A stretch of 64,000 bases of DNA, from positions 3,906,001 through 3,970,000 of the forward strand of contig JAPNXP010000002.1 in assembly GCA_028753945.1 (NCBI GenBank). The letters are read 5' to 3'. The notes under the pieces were generated by a model. That model made no database searches, was not told where the DNA came from, and worked only from the letters and a program-made list of their open reading frames with translations. The stretch is from Hexactinellida sp. DTS-2022. Its lineage: Eukaryota; Porifera; Hexactinellida. Position 1 is the stretch's first letter. Each line of letters opens with the position of its first letter. A program made the position numbers and the translations under genes. Below, in pieces: positions 18,034-59,817 of this stretch.

Positions 18034-20760
18034 CTAGAGGTCAGGTGTTTCATTAGCAGAATCTTTTGAATAATCCAGTTGAGTTGGATTGGTGTTTCCA
18101 GCTAGAAGGCATTGTGGATGTGTTTCGAGTTCCATTAGATTATCCTGAAATGTACCTGTTTCGTCTGGAGCATATTGCATCATCAGTTGCTTTATATGTT
18201 CTCTCCCACAATCATAGCAGTAGGTTTGCTTACAGGCTGCGCAAGCTGTCCGACTAGTAACCTTACAGATGGGGCAATTTCCCATCCTGATTTGGCTTTT
18301 GAGGTCAGGCATTTTCACAATTGGTTGCACTTTATGTTGTATAATTGCGTCTATGAACATTCGTGATGGATTGACTGGTTTGACAAATGGTGAATAAAGC
18401 TACCACAGAGGGACAAAATGACATATTCTTTGAACCATGCGAGCGTGTGTTTTCTGTTTGCGGCAGAGTTCCACTGTTGTTTCGTTTGTTTCGAGCATTT
18501 ATAAAGGATGTACGCATTTACGCATGCTGAATCTAGGATATGAAGAAATATCTTGATATAACCGCGTTTAGATGTGAGCGGAATGGAATGATGTCCCACG
18601 AGGCGGTCATGTTAATCCACTCCTCCCATGCGGTAATTATAAGCCTTGAGTATTGGCGTGCTTGGTATGTGCTGTCTTGTGTACTGTTTGTTGGCGTCAC
18701 GAATGTTTTTTTGGTGGAATTGTTGGCTGGGCGAGGTTGGAATGGCCGGAATACAGTTTGTGTTGAATATGACTTGCTTATCCGCGGTGCGATATTTCTT
18801 GTCCATCCAGACGAGAAGACAGACTGGTTCAGTGGCTTGTAGTTGCTTGGTAGGTCCTATTTTGGGACGGTGCTTAAATTTAGCCTGACACATGAACCAT
18901 TTATATGCCCAAGTGGTGACGAGATATTGCAAATCAGATGGCAGTTGTGTGAGAGTTGAAGTGTCGACCATTCCAGTTTTAAGTGACCTTAGATAGGCAG
19001 CCAGATCAAGATGCAAAAAGAATCTATCACAATAAATGATGTGATGTTTGTCCAGGTATGGGTTGGCTAACTGCAGCACCACGTCAAGGCCACCTACAGA
19101 TTCAACAGTGGAGCTAAGTAAAGGTCCTGGGCAAGACTGTATCCACAACAAGCGCAACAGATGGAGCATAGTTTTATACAATATTTGTTTGGCTTCGCTT
19201 TGATATACTGACGCAGCACAATCCTGCCATAGAACTTGACCATGATATCGTCAATGGAGAGTGACCTAGCCGGTTGGAGGAGATTTTAAGAGTTTGTATT
19301 GAGAGCGGTAAGTAGTATGCCAAGTTTCGCCTCAAAGCGTTCTGCAGTTGTTAGCGTTGGGTTTATTTCCTCATTGTTAGCGAAGTGCAGCATCGTGAAT
19401 AACTCTTCAAATCGATCACGGGAGGAATGCTGTTTGAAGTATGGTAGGTGGAATATCTTCGAGTCTGCGAAGTAGCAGCGACGATTGGGCAATTGAACAA
19501 GGGATGTCCATAAAATAAGGCCAATGAAGAAACGGATCTCTTCATATGTTGGCTCCTTCCACTCGTATGGTGGTAGATCAAATTTATTTTGCTTCCTGTA
19601 CAACTTAGTCTGATGTAGAATGGTTCGGAACTCATAGGGTCGGAAGATTGCGTCGAAGAATTTGATTGGATCATCACAGTCAAGCAGATGGATGCCTTGA
19701 TCTGAAATAGAGTGCTGCTGTGCTGGAGGAGTAGGATGAAGTTGTTGAGTTGGCTCTAGAATGGCGGGTGGGACCTTTTGGTACTCTGGTATTCTGAGAA
19801 CATTCATTGCATCCTCGTAGGGTTCAGAGTAAAAGGGTAATGCTTCTAGCTCAATTGGGTGCTCAGTGTCAAGAGCATGTTCTGAATCCCATAGTTTCGG
19901 GTAGAATCGTTCTATGGGTGTGTTCATTTTATCCATCCTCCTACGATAGCTTTGTTTCTGAATTTGTTCCGTAGTCTCACGATTGGCTTCGATGGCATAA
20001 ACTTTGAGATCAATGCGTGCGAGTCCTGATGGTGACTGTCTTATCGAATCAGTTTCGAAGACGTGTCGTTTTTCCCAGTCTTTGGATCCTTCAGGATAAT
20101 AAGGGGGTATTGGTATTTTCGGATTAATTTTTGGCATGAATCCCTGTGTTATTTCTGGTGGTGATTGTTGGGTATGTGAATCATCACCTATTTCACCAAT
20201 ATAGAAGATAGTTGTAAAGGTTTCAATGGTTGGGATAATGGATTGTAGCTAAATGATAGGCGTTTGGCTTGCCTGGATACCTGCGAACTGGCTTGTCGTT
20301 TTCCCTTAACCTGTATGGCAGAAGTTTGAACTTGTGACAACGATTTTGTTGTCTGAATAAGGACAGTATGCTTCTTAATGTTTGTGTCAGAATGCTGTGA
20401 TGAAGTGGTTGACTGGATGTGGAGTTGTGGTAACGAGAATGCTAACTGGGTAGATGGACTGGCTAGGGGTGAGTGTATGGTAGAAGCCTCCAGATTGTTT
20501 TGTGAAGAAATGAAGAGTGTGTTGGATGTAGGATCAGGTGTAAAAGAAATTAATGGAGTTTGAAGAAAAACGCACAGTTCGTTATCATCTTCGCTGAACT
20601 CGTCTGAAGCTTCATCATAAGATTGATACTCGTCTTGTAATTGGGTAGGGAGAGGTGTAGAGAGGTCAGCACTGAGTGCATCTTCATCTATTGGAATCTA
20701 CTCCGAGTGTGTCGGCTGTTTGGATTGACTTGCTATCTGTGTGATAGTATTACTATATTT
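18034..20760 (-). pseudogene. piggyBac-type transposase relic
   Basis: DDE transposase of the piggyBac family (DDE_Tnp_1_7 type), inferred to have acted on TTAA targets. An acidic, serine-rich N-terminal region (20697-20188) reads IPIDEDALSADLSTPLPTQL and continues, interrupted upstream by a TAG at 20700-20698. A frameshift near 20190-20250 leads into the next frame (20137-19286) with YEFRTILHQTKLYRKQNK, PTYEEIRFFIGLILWTS and FEELFTMLHFANNEE. Another shift brings SLSIDDIMVKFYGR, holding the first catalytic Asp, at about 19270-19200. Then follow YCDRFFLHLDLAAYL (second Asp), the WMDKKY block and YNYRMGGVD (19181-18612), then RGYIKIFLHILDSACVNAYI (18599-18351). The C-terminus is a cysteine-rich zinc-binding tail, CPICKVT to CYDCGREH (18360-18034). 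Several frameshifts make it non-functional. No matching terminal repeats were found beside it. Confidence 0.88.
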
Positions 20761-37043: not shown

Positions 37044-38363
37044 TTATTGAAAAATTTCTAATTTGCTTGTTATATTGGACCTACAAGTCGGACATCTGTC
37101 TCCTGGTGTGAAATTGATCTCGCAATTTCCACAAACTTGTGCATGCCCACAGGGTAAGAATACAAATGTAGATATTCTGTTTTGCAAGCAAATAACGCAT
37201 GGATTAACCAAAGGTTCTTCATTGATTTCAATATCCTCATCACTCTCTTCACAATCGGAATAGTAGAGGCATCTATCAGAACTATGATTTTTACCCACTG
37301 TGTAAGATATTTCTTTAAGATATTGTATAGGAGTATATTCTTTACTTTCAAGTTTTTCTCTGCAAATAATTCTTAGTTTTTCGTTTTCAATATCCTTTTT
37401 CCTTCTCTCCCCAATTTCTAAGCCGTAAAATAACCTCCCATACTCCAGGTCATATTTTACAATTATCCTTTCAAGCATTTCCATAAATGTCCATATATTC
37501 GGTGTTTTTACACGAATAATCGATTTCAAACCTCTGTGATAAACTTCGCAACAGTTGTTTGTTTTGTGAACTGAATGATAAACGGACAAATCATCTCTCA
37601 TTATCCATTCCTTTCTAACATACTCCTTAAATTTAGTGAGAAGATGTGCATCTGTTGGGCTAAGCATTAGTGACGACATATTGCTTACTAGAATATGAAA
37701 TACCGATATAATATCCTTTTGAGGTAGGAGTGGCAGACTCATTATCTCCTTAACCCAATTTGGGAAATTGGAATTTTTCGCATAATAGGATGTAAGTTGT
37801 AGCTTTTGTACCTTGCCCCATATCGCCTTACAATAATGAAAGAGGCAACCAGACATGTTTATTTGAGGAAACATATCCCGGAATACGTTCCTTGGTGCTC
37901 GTTCATAATCACCTACTGCCAATTCCGGATGAAAATCTGGGACAATTTCCACAATTTTCCTCAAAGTAGCTTCATACAATAAGTGATTTTTTTGCGACAT
38001 TAGAACATGAATGGCTGGTAGAGCATGATGACCAATTTGGATAAATATGGTAAATAATTGGTAAAATAATTTCGGTACAACATAGAAAGTCCCGTCAAAA
38101 TTAACACTTTTCGTGGTTTTTAGAGTCGAAAGCATTAAGTCCGAAACAAAAATAGCTGCGAAACCTTCGGGGATAACTACTATAGATCGAAAGTTTGATG
38201 TAAAACGAGTGAGTCTCAACATGTTATCAAATTCTTCTGGTGTCTTGGGATTTCTTGGAATCTCAATCCTTCTTCTCTTCAGCATAGTATTTCGTACATG
38301 TCGATAACTAATTAAAGCGCCAGCTTGATCACCGCTCGTGACATCGTCAAAAACTAATCGCAA
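37044..38363 (-). CDS. Mutator-like (MULE) transposase with C-terminal RING finger
   Basis: Uninterrupted 439-codon frame. Residues 84-180 match the MULE transposase core: VNFDGTFYVVPKLFYQLFTI with the first Asp at 90, AVGDYERAPRNVF with the second Asp at 152, and GCLFHYCKAIW with the family's C-x2-H at 173/176. NCCEVYHRGLK gives a candidate third acidic residue, Glu273. Residues 389-427 form a C3HC4 RING finger: CVIC, then LPCGHAQVCGNC, then RCPTC, all eight ligands present. RING fingers of this kind usually recruit ubiquitin-conjugating enzymes. The frame starts with TTG here and is open back to about 38405; the first ATG is codon 27 (38285). The usual N-terminal FLYWCH or other zinc finger of MULE proteins is absent, so an upstream exon or truncation is likely. 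A C-terminal acidic stretch (CEESDEDIEINEE) precedes the RING. Either a recently active element or a domesticated gene is possible. Confidence 0.85.
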   Translation of the reverse strand: MRLVFDDVTSGDQAGALISYRHVRNTMLKRRRIEIPRNPKTPEEFDNMLRLTRFTSNFRSIVVIPEGFAAIFVSDLMLSTLKTTKSVNFDGTFYVVPKLFYQLFTIFIQIGHHALPAIHVLMSQKNHLLYEATLRKIVEIVPDFHPELAVGDYERAPRNVFRDMFPQINMSGCLFHYCKAIWGKVQKLQLTSYYAKNSNFPNWVKEIMSLPLLPQKDIISVFHILVSNMSSLMLSPTDAHLLTKFKEYVRKEWIMRDDLSVYHSVHKTNNCCEVYHRGLKSIIRVKTPNIWTFMEMLERIIVKYDLEYGRLFYGLEIGERRKKDIENEKLRIICREKLESKEYTPIQYLKEISYTVGKNHSSDRCLYYSDCEESDEDIEINEEPLVNPCVICLQNRISTFVFLPCGHAQVCGNCEINFTPGDRCPTCRSNITSKLEIFQ

Positions 38364-38405
38364 AATACAATTAATTCTCTTTTTTATGGATATTTTACAT
38401 AATTT

Positions 38406-52591: not shown

Positions 52592-55161
52592 CAGTGGCGG
52601 AGACACGGTGGGGCCAGATGGGGCCATGGCCCCATTATTTTATGAGTTGCTATTCGTTTGCCATAAAATATTACCCAGTTTATATATTTTCTTCAATTTT
52701 ATTGTCCAATTTAAATATTAGTGGTAATCATGCATAGATTCTTTACTAAAACACCAGTCGCCCCCCACACTCAGTATCTGGCGATGTCAGCGAATTCTAC
52801 ACTTGCTAAGCGTGCCAGAGTAGATCCCTCCCCTACAGCTGACTTTATCAGGATTGATGGTGTCAGTCACATATCGCACAACCTCTCTGAGCCACATTCT
52901 CAACCAGTTCTAAAAGACAACCCTAAGCGGGTCTTTGGCGCAAGATCTCCGTGTTTCTACAAGGAGAGGTACAGGGGAAGAGCTTGGCTCGAGTATTCCA
53001 TCTCTTCTGACTCAGAATTTGTTATTGCTGCCGAGCATACTCGAACAATTCTACCAGCGACCTGTGGACTAAGTTTGGATTCAACAACTGGAAAGGAGCT
53101 ATGGAAGAGAGCAAAGGATTTAAGTTACACGAGGCTTCCGATGCTCACATCGAAGCTTTTGTGAAGTGGTGTAGTTTCCAGGAGAGTGTGCGGAGTGGTA
53201 GTATCATCACAAAAATAGCGGAAATCTCGAGACAAGATATCTTGGATAACCGTCACTACATCAAGACTGTGGCCCAGGTCATCGTTCTCTGCAGCGTTCT
53301 GGATATGGGTCTGCGAGGTCACCGTGAGGGACGCCTCGAAGATTCTTCCGGAGATTCTGTGGAACTCGATTTTAACTGCGGAAATCGCAATAGAGCCAAC
53401 TTCCTTGAGATCCTCTCGTCCTACGCTATCCATGATCCTATCATAAAGAGGAAGCTCATGAGCGATTCATGTCATGCACAGTACGCTCATCATTCCATCC
53501 ATGACCAGCTGCACTCCCTACTAGCAAAGTCTGTCCGTACCGACATACTTTCCAATCTGAAGTCAGCGAAATATTTCGCCATCATGTGCGATGAAACGAA
53601 AGATGTCGGAAAAGAAGAGCAGCTATCCATTTGTTTGCGTTATGTTGATTGTGGAGTCCTTCATGAGGACTTTTACAACTTCGTGAAGGCAGATGGTTTG
53701 GATAGTCGATCAGTCATGGCAGTTCTGAAGGAGCAGCTTGATGGCATGGGAGTGGATTCGGCGAGTCATCTGGTAGCCCAGTGCTATGATGGCGCAAGTG
53801 TTATGTCTGGCAGCCTGGGAGGACTACAAGCGCTCATGCGCGAGTCCATTTGTCCCTTGGCAATTTATGTGCATTGCTGGGCACATCGATTGAACCTCGT
53901 TGTCGTTTCTTGCGTAAGCGGAATCGACATAGCGGCAAGGTTCTTCGAGAATATGCAGACGCTCTACACATTCTTCTCTGCTAGTATGCCTCATGACTAT
54001 TTCCACGCTACACAAAAGGACTTACGTAGAACATAGAGGAATGAAAGCACTGATCGTGAAGGAGTTGAAGTCTCTATCCAAGACGAGGTGGTGTAGTCAG
54101 GCTGAAGCGTGTGATGCTGTAGTGGCCAACCTGGGAAGTGTGATCAAGTCTGTGGAACATTTTGCAGATGATGACTACCGTGAAAGACGAGCTAATGCAC
54201 AAATCATTGTGGGTTTCATTGACACGGATTTCATAGTCTGTTTCGTACTCTTTCAGAATATTATGCGGAAGTGCAATATTGTAGCTAACTACCTGCAGAG
54301 TAGGGACATGGATACGAGCAAGGCTGTCGAACTCATCGACGCACTAAGAAAGTCATTATATTCTCCAGAGCTGTTTGAAGATATTTGGCAGAATGCAACA
54401 ACGCTGACGAATGCCCACGAGATCGCCGCTCTCCTTGAGTTAGCCGCTGCCGGTGCAGGAAAGATACCAACCAATACACGTGGACCAGAAAAGACAACAA
54501 AGAGAAATCGTTTTCCAATGTTGTGAATGTTTTTGTGGATGAACTCAACAAAGTTTTGATGGTTCCGTCTGCGATCTACTTCGTTCGATGGCTTCGCTAA
54601 TCCCGCCATCTTCACATTTTCTCGACATTGACAATCTAAAGCCTTTCGCGAGAGACTATGCCCTGGACGAAAAATTGCTAAAAGTGAGATAGATGTCTTT
54701 TCTGCGCAGTACCGAATAGTTGATCCTAGTTGTAAGTCGTTGCTTGACATGTTGCACTTCCTTGAGCTCTATAAAACATGTTACGCTCAACTCAACAAGG
54801 CCATGGCGATTTCAGCAACGATTCAGGTGACAACAGCAGAAAACGAGAGATCTTTTAGTTGCCTGAAAAGGACAAAGACGTATCTGCGCAGTGTCATGAA
54901 CCACGAACGTCTTGGAGACCTTGGTACTCTCTCTATAACAGAGGAAGAGCTTCCAATATCGACCTCGAGGATATAGTTGATAGCTTCTCAAGTCTCTCAG
55001 AAAGGAGAATAGTCTTGAATTAGATTGTGATTATAGTAGATAGTCATAAGTGAACTAGTCATATATTTTAAATACTGAAGTTGTTTGATAAATTGGCCCC
55101 ACCCAAGTTTTATCTGACCTCGAATGGTCCCACCGCGCTTTTCACTCTAGCGCCGCTACTG
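52592..55161 (+). mobile_element. hAT element (ZMYM1/DUF4371 type), complete but decayed
   Basis: Left CAGTGGCGGAGACACGGTGG, right complement of CAGTAGCGGCGCTAGAGTG. It encloses the transposase relic. No matching 8-bp flanks could be read (gcaagagt against ttcttgag), so the duplication has decayed or an end is slightly off. Confidence 0.8.
52730..54976 (+). pseudogene. hAT transposase relic, TTF finger + DUF4371 + hAT C-terminus
   Basis: An RNase H-like transposase of the hAT group whose relatives include ZMYM1-like proteins. The ATG at 52730 gives MHRFFTKTP, a typical start. A TTF-type zinc-finger region follows: YRGRAWLEYS and, after a frameshift near 53060, FGFNNWKGAMEESKGFKLHE. The DUF4371 core (53101-54036) has YFAIMCDETKDVGKEEQLSI with the first catalytic Asp, CYDGASVMSG with the second, and YVHCWAHRLNLVV. 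A further shift near 54000 leads to LSKTRWCSQAEACDAVV. The C-terminal dimerisation region (54740-54976) has ENERSFSCLKRTKTYL and MNHERL. There are at least two frameshifts, plus stops at 54524-54526 and in the region up to 54740. Codon use is visibly more GC-rich than the surroundings. It cannot make a full protein. Confidence 0.92.
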
Positions 55162-56359: not shown

Positions 56360-56762
56360 AGTGTAATTCTCCAATCTGTTCTGTAATTGCATAACTAAGC
56401 ATAAAATTTATACAGCATGTCTAAGTCCAAATTATTTTTCGAGCAGCATTAAATTCTAAAGGAAATGCCTCCCCATGGTGGTAATACTGTTTTATTAGAT
56501 TTCACTGAATTAAATCTTATAAAGTATATTCTTTATAGCTCCAAAAATTTGTATGATTGATCAGTACTATTAGCACAAGGTTTGCTTAGCTCACAAGACG
56601 CCTATCCCAAGTTTAACCATTTCTTAACCTACAAATCCTAAAATTCGTCAAAAAAGAGGCCAGAAAGTGGGATCTTTGCTCCTTGCTTGGTCTCCACTCA
56701 GACACTAATCGTTTGTTTGCTTCAATGAGCTTGCAAAATGATCTTTATACTATTAAGAACTA
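56360..56762. other. Non-coding stretch
   Basis: No gene recognised. Confidence 0.5.
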
Positions 56763-56764
56763 TA

Positions 56765-56864
56765 CAGGTAAACCTCCCAAAGCGGCACCTCCGAGTAGCG
56801 GCAACCTCCGAGAAGCGGCACAAAATCATTCACCCGATGGGTGCCGCTTTGGGAGGTTTACCTG
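56765..56864. mobile_element. 100-bp palindromic pogo-type MITE
   Basis: Left CAGGTAAACCTCCCAAAGCG, right exact complement, flanked by TA (56763-56764, 56865-56866). Nearly the whole element is two inverted arms. Confidence 0.9.
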
Positions 56865-57029
56865 TATATGAATTTTTGAAAGCAATCCCTTATGAACTTT
56901 ATTAGATAAAATTCGAGTTATGTAAAAAAAAACAATAATTGAGTAATTGAAGGCTGAAGTTTTTTGATTGTAAAATGCATATGTGCTATAAAATTTGTCA
57001 GTATTACAACCGGATTTAGTTTCAATATA

Positions 57030-57160
57030 CAGTAATACCTCGTTTTACGCGGTTTTTTTTACGCGTTTTCGTTTTACGCGGAACAATTTTTTATGGCCAA
57101 AACTTTTTTACGCGAACCTCAACTCGTTTACGTGGTTTATCTATGATTTTCATACAATTA
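57030..57160 (+). repeat. Pogo-like terminal segment abutting the RAG1-like relic
   Basis: CAGTAATACCTCGTTTTACG after TA (57028-57029), then ttacgcgg repeats, ending tttcatacaatta. It matches 44249-44410 in inverse orientation. The RAG1-like reading frame begins at its inner border. Confidence 0.8.
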
Positions 57161-58973
57161 AGAGAGGAAGTTGATCCTATTGATATTGCCACCTATACTC
57201 TTCAGTTGATTTCAAATGAAAATCATGATACTACAGTCTCTAATGTTTTAAAAATTCTTATTTCTCGGGGAACATTTGGTAAGAATCCCAAAGTCACGGT
57301 TTCCATTGAAAAGTCTGCTTTTCTTATTGATTTACTAGAAATCGGAAAGAGAAGATATGCGTCTCTCCGGGATTTATGCATTTCTGAAATGTAATTTTAC
57401 ATTCCTATGATAAGGTATTTATTAATCGAAACAATATAGTCTTCTCGGATGAATATGCTATGTACGTAGCACTTCTGAAATGATAATTGGCGTTTCGATA
57501 TCTTATCAGAAGATTGTTCACCAGACTATTATACGTATTCTTGAAACAAATTCAGCAGTACCTCAGTTTCCTATTTCTATCAAAATTGTCGATGGTTGGG
57601 ATGGGTCAGGATCCCACCAAATGTATAGTCAATATCATTCCGACGTTAATTTATCTACTAAGAATTACACCCTGTTTGCCTTCCGAGTAACGTCAATTAC
57701 GGATTGTAATAATAATTCCATTTATTAGAATGATAATCCCAATGCAACTTTCGGCATAAGACCAGTTGCATTGATCGCACAAAAAGAATGTCTTGAAAGC
57801 AGCAGGCATTTGATGGAAATATCATAAATCCTGAATGCGAGTCAATGCAACAGGGTATGTCATTTCCCCATTGAACTGCTAAAGTAAAAATCATTCGCAG
57901 TATGCTTGATGGAATGATATCAGCGAAATTTAAGCGGAGCAGGTGGTGCCAACTGTCAGTTGTGCACAGCTACTAGCACCGAACTACGGGATAAAGATCT
58001 TGTTAGGTGCGGATTTCCAATCAACAGAACTTTTTCGAGCGCTAAGGAAATATTTAGTTCTGTAGATTCAATAGAATTTTTGTCACTTCCCTCTCAGGCT
58101 CGATTCGGAATTACTCTTGAACCCTTCTCAGATATTGATATCCTACCAGCTTCTCCTCTACATTCATACACATGCATCTTTCGTTGGTTCATCTTAGTGA
58201 TATATCAACTGCAATCCGGCACACGCAAATGGTCTCCTACTTCGAAGAAAATTCAAGATTCGATGAAATTAACTCGAACATTCTTGGAAGAAAAAACTGG
58301 CTTTAGGATTGATCAACCAAGTAAGGATGGAGGTACAACATCAATAGGTAATATCGGAAGAGAATGCTTTCTTAACTGCCATGATTTTATATTTTGGGTG
58401 AATTCTTTGATTCCCACTGAGATGAGAGCGAAATTTTTAGTTATTCATACCAATCTTTCAGCTATACTCAGAGTTTACAATTCCAGTCAGGAAATTAACG
58501 TGGATAATTTAGAAGAGTTATGCAAAAGAACATGTGAAACAATCCACGTTGACTTTCCATGGGCCAGTATAACTCCTAACTTACACAAACTCCTTGCACA
58601 TTGTACCGAAATTATCAGAGATTGTAACTAAGGACATGGATTAAAAGATTTCTCATAAGAAGGTGTTGAGTCATGCAACAAGTTAATTGGGAGATATCGA
58701 GAACTTCTTGCGAGAACGACCTCATTCTCCACAATTGCAAGGACGTCTTCATCCGTATTTACACAGAGCGATGCACTGTTTCAGAGCTTCAGAAAAGTAT
58801 TGAGATGTAAAGAATGTAGAGAGTATGGACAAACAAATCGGATAAGATGCAAAAAGCTCTCATTACAGAACAATCTAGATGATTCTCTTATAAATTCACT
58901 CATGCTATCGCCAAATAACGATAATTTAGAACATTCTAGTTATATTTCTGAATTTATTATTGAACCACAATAA
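57161..58973 (+). pseudogene. RAG1-like transposase relic
   Basis: Relative of vertebrate RAG1 and invertebrate RAG1-like/Transib DDE transposases, nucleases that cut at terminal signals. Reading order: LLEIGKRRYASLRDLCISE (to 57394); IKIVDGWDGSGSHQMYSQ (57480-57728) at the RAG1 first-Asp (D600) position; the zinc-ligand segment GANCQLCTATSTELRD (~57950-58000); ASPLHSYTCIFRWF, aligned to the RAG1 D708 segment but with Ser at the Asp; TSIGNIGRECF; SLIPTEMRAKFL; LEELCKRTCE; NLHKLLAHCTEIIRDCN, matching RAG1 FHKTLAHVPEII; and EGVESCNKLIGRYRELLAR, matching RAG1 EGNESGNKLFRRFRKMNAR with the third acidic residue (E962) kept. The tail CKECREYGQTNRIRC resembles the zinc knuckle described in lancelet RAG1-like proteins, with Gln for His. 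Frameshifts lie at ~57395-57480 and 57830-57950, with stops at 57726, 58629 and 58668. No N-terminal RING or RAG2-like gene is seen. Confidence 0.85.
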
Positions 58974-59085
58974 TTAATATTTGGACAATATTTGTGATAT
59001 CAACATAACTCGAGGAATACACTTTGTACCAAATAATTTATATGAAAAATCGATTCCTTATGGCCGATAACCTATAGGCTTATAA

Positions 59086-59817
59086 TACATTTATTGCCTC
59101 TATCGTGCATGTAAATACTTATTTCCCCTAAAATCCCGTTTTCGCCCACTGTGGGATGATGAGCCTGTAGTGATCAATAATGAAATCAAGGTTTATCCTC
59201 TAGGCGAATTCTGTCCGATAGATTCTAAATGCCAAAAAGAAAAATGTAAAGTATTGAACTTAACATTTATATCCGGAATTCTTTTTGAGAATCAGTCCTC
59301 AATAAAGAATCTTGACATCCGCTGTCTTGCACCTTGGAAAGAGAAAAGGATAGCTCCCGATGGAAACTGTTTGTTTCATTCCTTGTCATATATTTTCACA
59401 GGTAATGATCGCTCCCACAAAGGAATCAGAATATTATTACTACAACATATGAAGGGTCTTTATCGAGACATTTGTACAAGATACTGCAATTCACATTAAG
59501 ATCTACTACCAGAAAACCGCTGTAATTCTGTAGATAACTATATAAGTAACAGTAGAATGGAATCAAATGGTAGCTGGGGTACTGACATGGAAATTTTCCT
59601 AGCAGCCCAAATCTTAAAGACGGACACATTCGTTTACAGAGACAATTTCCAAAGCAGGAGCAAGTTTTCTGGATATGGGTTTGTTGATAAACATAATGCA
59701 CATGATCTAACTGAAAAAAGAATATACATGAGATTGTGTTGGGATCATTATCAGCCTATAGTTAAAGTTGATAGAGTAGAAAACTGCAAGATTTACAAAG
59801 ATTCTCTAAATATTTGA
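59086..59817 (+). pseudogene. OTU-domain cysteine protease relic
   Basis: OTU proteases remove ubiquitin or ubiquitin-like tags. A single frame runs from about 59086 to the stop at 59817, interrupted only by TAA at 59497-59499. It reads FRPLWDDEPVVINNEIKVYP, then RIAPDGNCLFHSLSYIFTGN, which is the OTU active-site block with catalytic Asp and Cys (DGNC), then SWGTDMEIFLAAQIL, the usual OTU helix, and CWDHYQPIV, carrying the expected catalytic His. All three catalytic positions are therefore present although the frame has a stop. No ATG lies near the start of the open region, so an upstream exon or loss is possible. It begins only ~110 bp after the RAG1-like relic, on the same strand and with a similarly small number of stops, so both may come from one mobile element. 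OTU domains are common passengers in retroelements and DNA transposons. Confidence 0.82.

Follow-up and report, generated by a model that had tools for sequence, protein, structure and literature searches.

A decayed RAG1/Transib-superfamily transposon copy in a probable glass sponge and its single-gene relatives with mostly asymmetric ends

RAG1 is the enzyme responsible for assembling antibody genes, and a stretch of DNA resembling it in the genome of a probable glass sponge raises the question of which kind of mobile element left it there. The window considered here (i.e., the whole 64-kb stretch of DNA that was analyzed) had been proposed, from motif comparison, to contain a RAG1-like transposase relic belonging to a family with better copies elsewhere in the same genome. 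The analysis described below indicates that this relic is very probably a dead, 5'-truncated copy from a large, recently active family of cut-and-paste transposons of the RAG1/Transib superfamily, of Subgroup I grade, in a probable glass sponge.

The extent of the relic is given by comparison with its relatives. Specifically, a sister copy, L010, aligns with the window DNA over 2012 bp at 88% identity (57157-59153) and has the same 3' end, the homology running up to the last base of the 3' inverted repeat, at 59153. Because this homology reaches 59153, the relic is ~180 bp longer than originally predicted. It retains the 3' ~2.0 kb of an element of ~3 kb, and both the comparison with L010 and a protein profile of 20 intact relatives from the same genome (A1) indicate that the 5' end and the first ~118 residues are missing; with the 5' end absent, the 5-bp duplication of this copy is not readable. 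The transposase is legible in pieces from 57157 to 58973, on the + strand only, and is collinear with the A1 profile, which matches in the order in which the segments had been aligned with RAG1. In-frame stops and one frameshifted stretch interrupt the piece at 57438..58910, and the codons for all three catalytic acids can still be read. A six-frame scan with the A1 profile found no second copy elsewhere in the 64-kb window. The features of the relic are as follows:

57157..59153, + strand: truncated, decayed copy of a RAG1/Transib-superfamily transposon (88% DNA identity to L010; A1 profile match)
57157..57391, + strand: piece in the first frame, covering the last part of the nonamer-binding-like region plus the residues after it (profile 119-198; hmmsearch with A1, 75.6 bits)
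57438..58910, + strand: second-frame piece, from the catalytic core to the C-terminal tail (profile 215-708; hmmsearch with A1, 627 bits, E 5e-192)
57600..57602, + strand: codon of the first catalytic Asp, in DGWDGSG, aligned to RAG1 D600 (sequence reading; alignment of the relatives with RAG1)
57809..57925, + strand: piece in the first frame that holds the second catalytic Asp and marks the frameshift (profile 340-379; hmmsearch with A1, 19.0 bits)
57908..57910, + strand: codon of the second catalytic Asp, in RSMLDG, in the other frame (A1 profile match)
58668..58670, + strand: codon of the third catalytic acid, Glu, in EGVESCNKLI, aligned to RAG1 E962 (ORF 58659-58973; alignment of the relatives)
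59118..59126, - strand: nonamer-like box GGAAATAAG of the two-turn end, with a 20-bp spacer to the heptamer (sequence reading; spacing as in other families)
59147..59153, - strand: 3' terminal heptamer CACAGTG (sequence reading; L010 ends alike)

Two further stretches lie near the relic: a repeat-like one with CGTTTTACGCGG motifs (57029-57150), which adjoins the transposase copy on its truncated 5' side, and a palindromic one at 56762-56868, with arms like CAGGTAAACCTCCCAAAGCGGCAC, which is possibly a short non-autonomous element.

Searches of solved structures constitute independent tests of the RAG1 claim, since the relatives were themselves fished with the window or with related sequences. 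For the 237-residue piece of the window, the E value is 3.6e-4 with a Transib transposase (6pqn) and an insignificant 0.19 with amphioxus RAG1L (6b40). The intact relative L031 gives 9e-22 with 6pqn, 9e-8 with RAG1L, and about 1e-5 with RAG1, and the family profile gives 7e-46, 3e-18, and 3e-15 with the same three. By sequence, the nearest solved-structure relative of the family is thus Transib, ahead of RAG1L and RAG1. Of the 20 relatives, 19 match the Pfam family for RAG1 (PF12940) at E<=1, the best of them at 1.7e-9; the window's own 237-residue piece has no Pfam match at E<=1. All 20 relatives possess the catalytic residues D269, D373, and E626 (L031 numbering). Homology to the RAG1/Transib catalytic core, complete with its three acidic residues, is accompanied in the family by CAC-starting inverted repeats and 5-bp target-site duplications. 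Since the structure searches return Transib, RAG1L, and RAG1, the original motif comparison can be regarded as correct: HKLLAH and ESCNKL align with RAG1 as described, GNIGRECF and LIPTEMR sit where the relatives align with RAG1 GNFARKLM and LIPSEERH, and the third catalytic acid does lie within EGVESCNKLI. A profile search against RAG1 and Transib had been set beforehand as the test of the prediction, and it neither assigned the fragments to an unrelated transposase family nor lacked a significant score. The structure matches and the collinear A1 match together establish a relic of RAG1/Transib type; the term RAG1-like holds in the sense of membership in the superfamily, and not in the strict sense of RAG1L or RAGL, as the profile is closer to Transib and the element carries a single gene.

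The surmise that the genome harbors a whole family, with better copies than that of the window, is borne out. At least 151 matches to the window transposase occur in the 112-Mb, 18-contig assembly, a lower bound on matches rather than elements, as 150 of 598 candidates were scored and some elements give two rows. At least 13 of the listed rows combine a match free of stops with an open frame of at least 700 residues, and intact ~3-kb elements with one long ORF were found. Among the 20 fetched loci, eight same-family pairs are 98.1-99.8% identical (the printed flanks of the copies differ), including L031/L032 (99.8%), L040/L042 (99.7%), and L034/L048 (99.3%). Recent movement of the family is suggested by these copies of >99% identity. 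In each of five family pairs, pS (0.76-0.84) exceeds pN (0.20-0.33), which is the pattern expected of proteins kept functional.

Eighteen elements have both ends present, and 11 of these measure 2.97-3.34 kb and seven 3.5-6.1 kb. No second gene was found on either strand of these 18 elements, the open stretches outside the transposase frame or its pieces being at most 123 residues long; a ~3-kb element has only about 0.9 kb outside the transposase frame, where a spliced gene of short exons is formally conceivable. A genome-wide search for the RAG2 family gave no match here and none in control genomes either, and is therefore uninformative. L031 and L035 carry a recurrent inverted repeat, AAAAAAATCCAAAATTGCAGC...GTCGGCAC, which probably represents another transposon family.

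Protein relatives point to a glass sponge as the probable host. The assembly, at 112 Mb, somewhat exceeds the 80 Mb published for another glass sponge genome, that of Aphrocallistes vastus (PMC10282587), and a COX1 search aimed at the host gave no match, with 8 of 14 controls positive. A search that scored the best 8000 candidates by words in common yielded 49 proteins, eight of which have an organism name, in every case the glass sponge Oopsacas minuta; the UniRef names of some of the Oopsacas proteins already read V(D)J recombination-activating protein. A second, alignment-based search returned 48 proteins, all among the first 49, and no additional relatives. In prokaryote and viral contigs, 125 and 62 stretches, respectively, fit short patterns, and none was confirmed as a relative.

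Other elements are also present in the window. Directly past the 3' end of the transposon, as if it had been inserted into or beside another gene, are fragments of an OTU-like cysteine protease (59086-59817; PF02338, E 0.15 and 0.0015, below the family cut-off). These ORFs were considered as a second gene of the element and rejected, for the OTU match (E 0.0015, in the second ORF) falls past position 59153, at which the element stops. Farther away are a broken piggyBac-type transposase (18612-20697, - strand; PF13843, E 8e-18), a 453-residue open frame (37044-38405, - strand) comprising a MULE transposase domain (PF10551) and then a C3HC4 RING finger (PF13920), a pairing that seems unusual, and a gene piece with DUF4371 (53011-54526, + strand; PF14291, E 9e-12), a domain that we take to be related to hAT transposons.

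The termini of the intact elements carry both marks that the original prediction had anticipated, i.e., CAC-starting ends and 5-bp duplications. Of the 20 fetched loci, 18 have the exact heptamer CACAGTG where expected at either end, with L035 lacking the 3' and L042 the 5' heptamer; the ends were searched for with this word, and several lie no more than a few bases from homology breakpoints that are independent of it. Identical 5-bp flanks border 15 of the 18 elements and four of six further ones read by eye (together 19 of 24 with both ends), and the flanks of the other five do not match exactly.

Beyond the heptamer, the 5' and 3' ends differ in layout. The spacing statistics cover the fetched loci and the window, and the set of 17 families excludes same-family copies (L030, L032, L033, L035, L047, L048, L022, L025) and copies missing one end (L010, L014, L017, L024, L026, L042), with overlapping loci (L011, L012, L015, L016, L020, L021, L027, L028) counted once, via the loci used. 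When the two ends are compared without gaps past the heptamer, 14 of the 17 families align best at an offset of +9 or +10 bp. The mean score at +9 is 7.4, whereas 1000 shuffles reach 3.8 at most; offset 0 scores as well (5.3) because the bases right after the heptamer are common to both ends. The exceptions are L031, for which offset 0 is best and +9 second, and L037 and L041, which have no +9/+10 offset. The box common to the ends is 9 bp long and GGAAATAGG-like, and a scan seeded with GGAAATAGG, chosen by eye, locates it 10-11 bp from CACAGTG at the 5' end and 20-21 bp from it at the 3' end in 14 of the 17 families. Here L037, L038, and L041 are the exceptions, of which L038 still has the +9 offset, and L044, inside the fitting 14, has a negative 5' box score. 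Similarly, 21 distinct ends of the form CACAGTGG...G[GA]A[AG]TAGG, a count that includes the 17 families and some close copies within one family, have the box at 11 (seven ends), 20 (ten), 21 (three), or 2 bp (one); in the same DNA set, none was seen at other tested spacings and none with a reversed heptamer. Several 5' ends also bear an A-rich stretch, e.g., AAAAAAATC, near position 28-36. The ends are thus asymmetric in 14 of the 17 families, in a one-turn/two-turn layout like that of 12/23 signals, and this layout exists without RAG2. A variant arrangement is seen in L017 with L052 (G000 C14 near 2916000), in which an inverted 3'-type two-turn end replaces the one-turn end on the left; about 190 bp on the left side of L017 are 76% identical to a 3' terminus when reverse-complemented.

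Intact members encode a single transposase composed of a nonamer-binding-like domain, a DDE core, a zinc domain with alpha11-alpha12, and mostly a CCGHC-like tail. A profile of the N-terminal part (93 positions, residues ~87-180) matches 16 PDB sequences at E<=10, all of them RAG1, the best being 3gna (1.5e-4), which is the isolated nonamer-binding domain; amphioxus RAG1L is absent from these matches. None of 95 long HzTransib-type proteins matches this profile better than E 9, and a profile of 22 HzTransib-type proteins has no 3gna match at E<=10. The HzTransib-type matches listed are 120 of 1188, and the named ones among them are from insects. These proteins carry a short corresponding motif, RKPF-L-KQK-RR, at the place of the nonamer-binding domain, and an equivalent of the domain has been reported in both Transib subgroups (Tao et al., 2022; PMC9435367), so that the domain itself is not new; by profile, the sponge version is more RAG1-like than its HzTransib-type counterpart.

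The distance from the second zinc Cys to the next His is 65-67 residues in all 20 sponge proteins, 64 in mouse RAG1, and 60 in amphioxus, and 28-31 in all 22 HzTransib-type proteins; from its length and alignment, we take the sponge stretch to be the alpha11-alpha12 region. The CCGHC-like tail conforms to the strict pattern Cx2Cx3GHx4C in two of the 20 proteins and to a looser pattern in 15 (one with Ser for His), L039 having a shorter variant, and a pattern search of the 20 found no such tail in L034, L036, L037, and L038. These four tail-less members form two well-supported sponge pairs and have intact reading frames. Neither the strict nor the looser pattern occurs in any of the 22 HzTransib-type proteins.

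Judged by published features, the elements fit Subgroup I Transibs in most points: they have a single gene and no RAG2L, keep alpha11-alpha12, have asymmetric ends, and possess an equivalent of the nonamer-binding domain. This placement rests on features and not on a tree. A tree of 20 sponge, 12 HzTransib-type, and two RAG rows (the amphioxus row being a core piece) has each of the three groups on one side of a starred branch and gives 100/99 support to a separate sponge clade, with stems of about 2.2 changes per column for the sponge and HzTransib-type groups each; because both RAG rows are long (that of amphioxus being also of odd letter composition) and there is no Subgroup I row, the tree gives separation, not sisterhood. 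The CCGHC-like tail, the alpha11-alpha12 region, which binds RAG2, and the nonamer-binding-like domain are common to the sponge family and RAG1/RAG1L, and could also be explained by a RAGL (RAG1L-RAG2L) transposon that has lost RAG2L, a lineage nested in RAG1L and not in Transib. Such a descent is improbable, given that the sponge core matches Transib (7e-46) far more strongly than it does RAG1L and RAG1 (3e-18 and 3e-15), that the elements lack room for a second gene and none was seen in 18 of them, that the tree has three deep, separate lineages (albeit with only two RAG rows, both long), and that Tao et al. report the very same features for Subgroup I Transibs (PMC9435367).

Less likely still is an ordinary HzTransib-type (Subgroup II) family that spread into the sponge by horizontal transfer: while the sponge profile matches HzTransib-type proteins over most of its length (hhalign E 5e-49), the loss of alpha11-alpha12 that typifies Subgroup II is not seen in the sponge proteins, which keep ~35 residues missing from all 22 HzTransib-type sequences, and both the separate clade at 100/99 and the N-terminal profile, for which no E below 9 was obtained with any of the 95 HzTransib-type proteins, argue against it. 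An unrelated DDE family whose likeness to RAG1 is due to chance might be read from the silence of Pfam on the window fragment and from the fragment's insignificant match to amphioxus RAG1L (E 0.19), and is hardly credible in view of the fragment's Transib match (3.6e-4), the structure matches of L031 and of the family profile, the RAG1 matches of the N-terminal profile, and the 627 bits scored with A1; on these grounds it was rejected. The reading preferred here therefore remains that of a RAG1/Transib-superfamily family of Subgroup I grade.

Observation provides the sequence relationship, the catalytic residues, the ends, the duplications, the spacing, and the young copies, and a mode of transposition may be proposed from them. 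Cleavage by nick and hairpin is known for both Transib and RAG. A transposase dimer would pair two unlike ends, a one-turn end whose box lies 10-11 bp from CACAGTG and a two-turn end whose box lies 20-21 bp from it, the nonamer-binding-like domain presumably gripping the distal box, and the DDE core would cut at CAC through a nick and a hairpin, after which the element would insert with a 5-bp duplication. The contacts between domain and box, the hairpin chemistry, the dimer, and the need for unlike ends are thus predictions; the last of these is a requirement that sequence alone cannot reveal, as every copy inherits both ends.

It is possible, if somewhat doubtful, that a sponge transposon without RAG2 follows a recognition rule built from the signal layout of V(D)J recombination (consensus heptamer, second box, and unlike one- and two-turn spacers) and a nonamer-binding domain of RAG1 type. 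According to one review (PMC8355894), RAG1 reads the 12/23 asymmetry only in complex with RAG2, and elsewhere such asymmetry is known from some members of the Transib family alone. If the sponge rule were true, 12/23 logic would be older than RAG2 and would need just a RAG1-like protein. In the open-access literature, including PMC7204232, PMC9435367, and PMC10282587, no report of a sponge RAG1/Transib element was found; similarly, the words sponge and porifera do not appear in the main text of Tao et al. (PMC9435367). As far as these searches reach, sponges join the hosts of RAG1-related elements, and the sponge radiation, the RAG1-only N-terminal profile, and the 10-11/20-21 box layout in 14 of 17 families are apparently new. 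The sponge elements, apparently young, intact, and free of RAG2, come from an early-branching animal lineage; having 11/20-type ends along with a RAG1-like nonamer-binding domain, they bear on the origin of the paired, unequal V(D)J signals and offer material for testing whether a RAG1-like protein alone can read the asymmetry.

Among known systems, HzTransib-type Transibs have CAC-starting ends and 5-bp duplications. These they share with the sponge family, along with the DDE core and the RKPF-L-KQK-RR-like motif; in contrast to the sponge family, the ~35-residue alpha11-alpha12 stretch is missing from them, and none of the 22 has the CCGHC tail. Subgroup I Transibs all have asymmetric ends and keep alpha11-alpha12 and a CTT1-type tail (Tao et al., 2022; PMC9435367). 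Common to these and the sponge elements are the single transposase gene, the asymmetric inverted repeats, alpha11-alpha12, and the equivalent of the nonamer-binding domain; a CTT1-type tail, mostly of a looser form, is found in most of the sponge proteins and has been lost in some sponge lineages. In contrast to the described Subgroup I Transibs, the sponge elements have a sponge host, a GGAAATAGG box at 10-11/20-21 bp, and a high copy number, the latter differing also from the one or at most few copies per animal genome that are typical of autonomous Transibs (PMC4411706).

RAGL transposons such as ProtoRAG and AanRAGL resemble the sponge elements in the RAG1L-like order of the core, the CCGHC-like tail, the bipartite, unequal ends (in Aureococcus AanRAGL, spacers of 4/13, a difference of 9 bp; PMC9435367), and the 5-bp duplications, but carry RAG2L, whereas the sponge elements have no second gene. 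With vertebrate RAG1 the family shares the nonamer-binding domain, which is the sole PDB match (E<=10) of the sponge N-terminal profile, and differs from it in being a transposon and in having no RAG2. Finally, the recombination signals of vertebrates, whose consensus heptamer is CACAGTG (PMC8289069), have in common with the sponge ends this very heptamer and a second box lying roughly one or two turns of the helix away, the box being GGAAATAGG in the sponge and ACAAAAACC in vertebrates, and the spacers 10-11/20-21 and 12/23, respectively.
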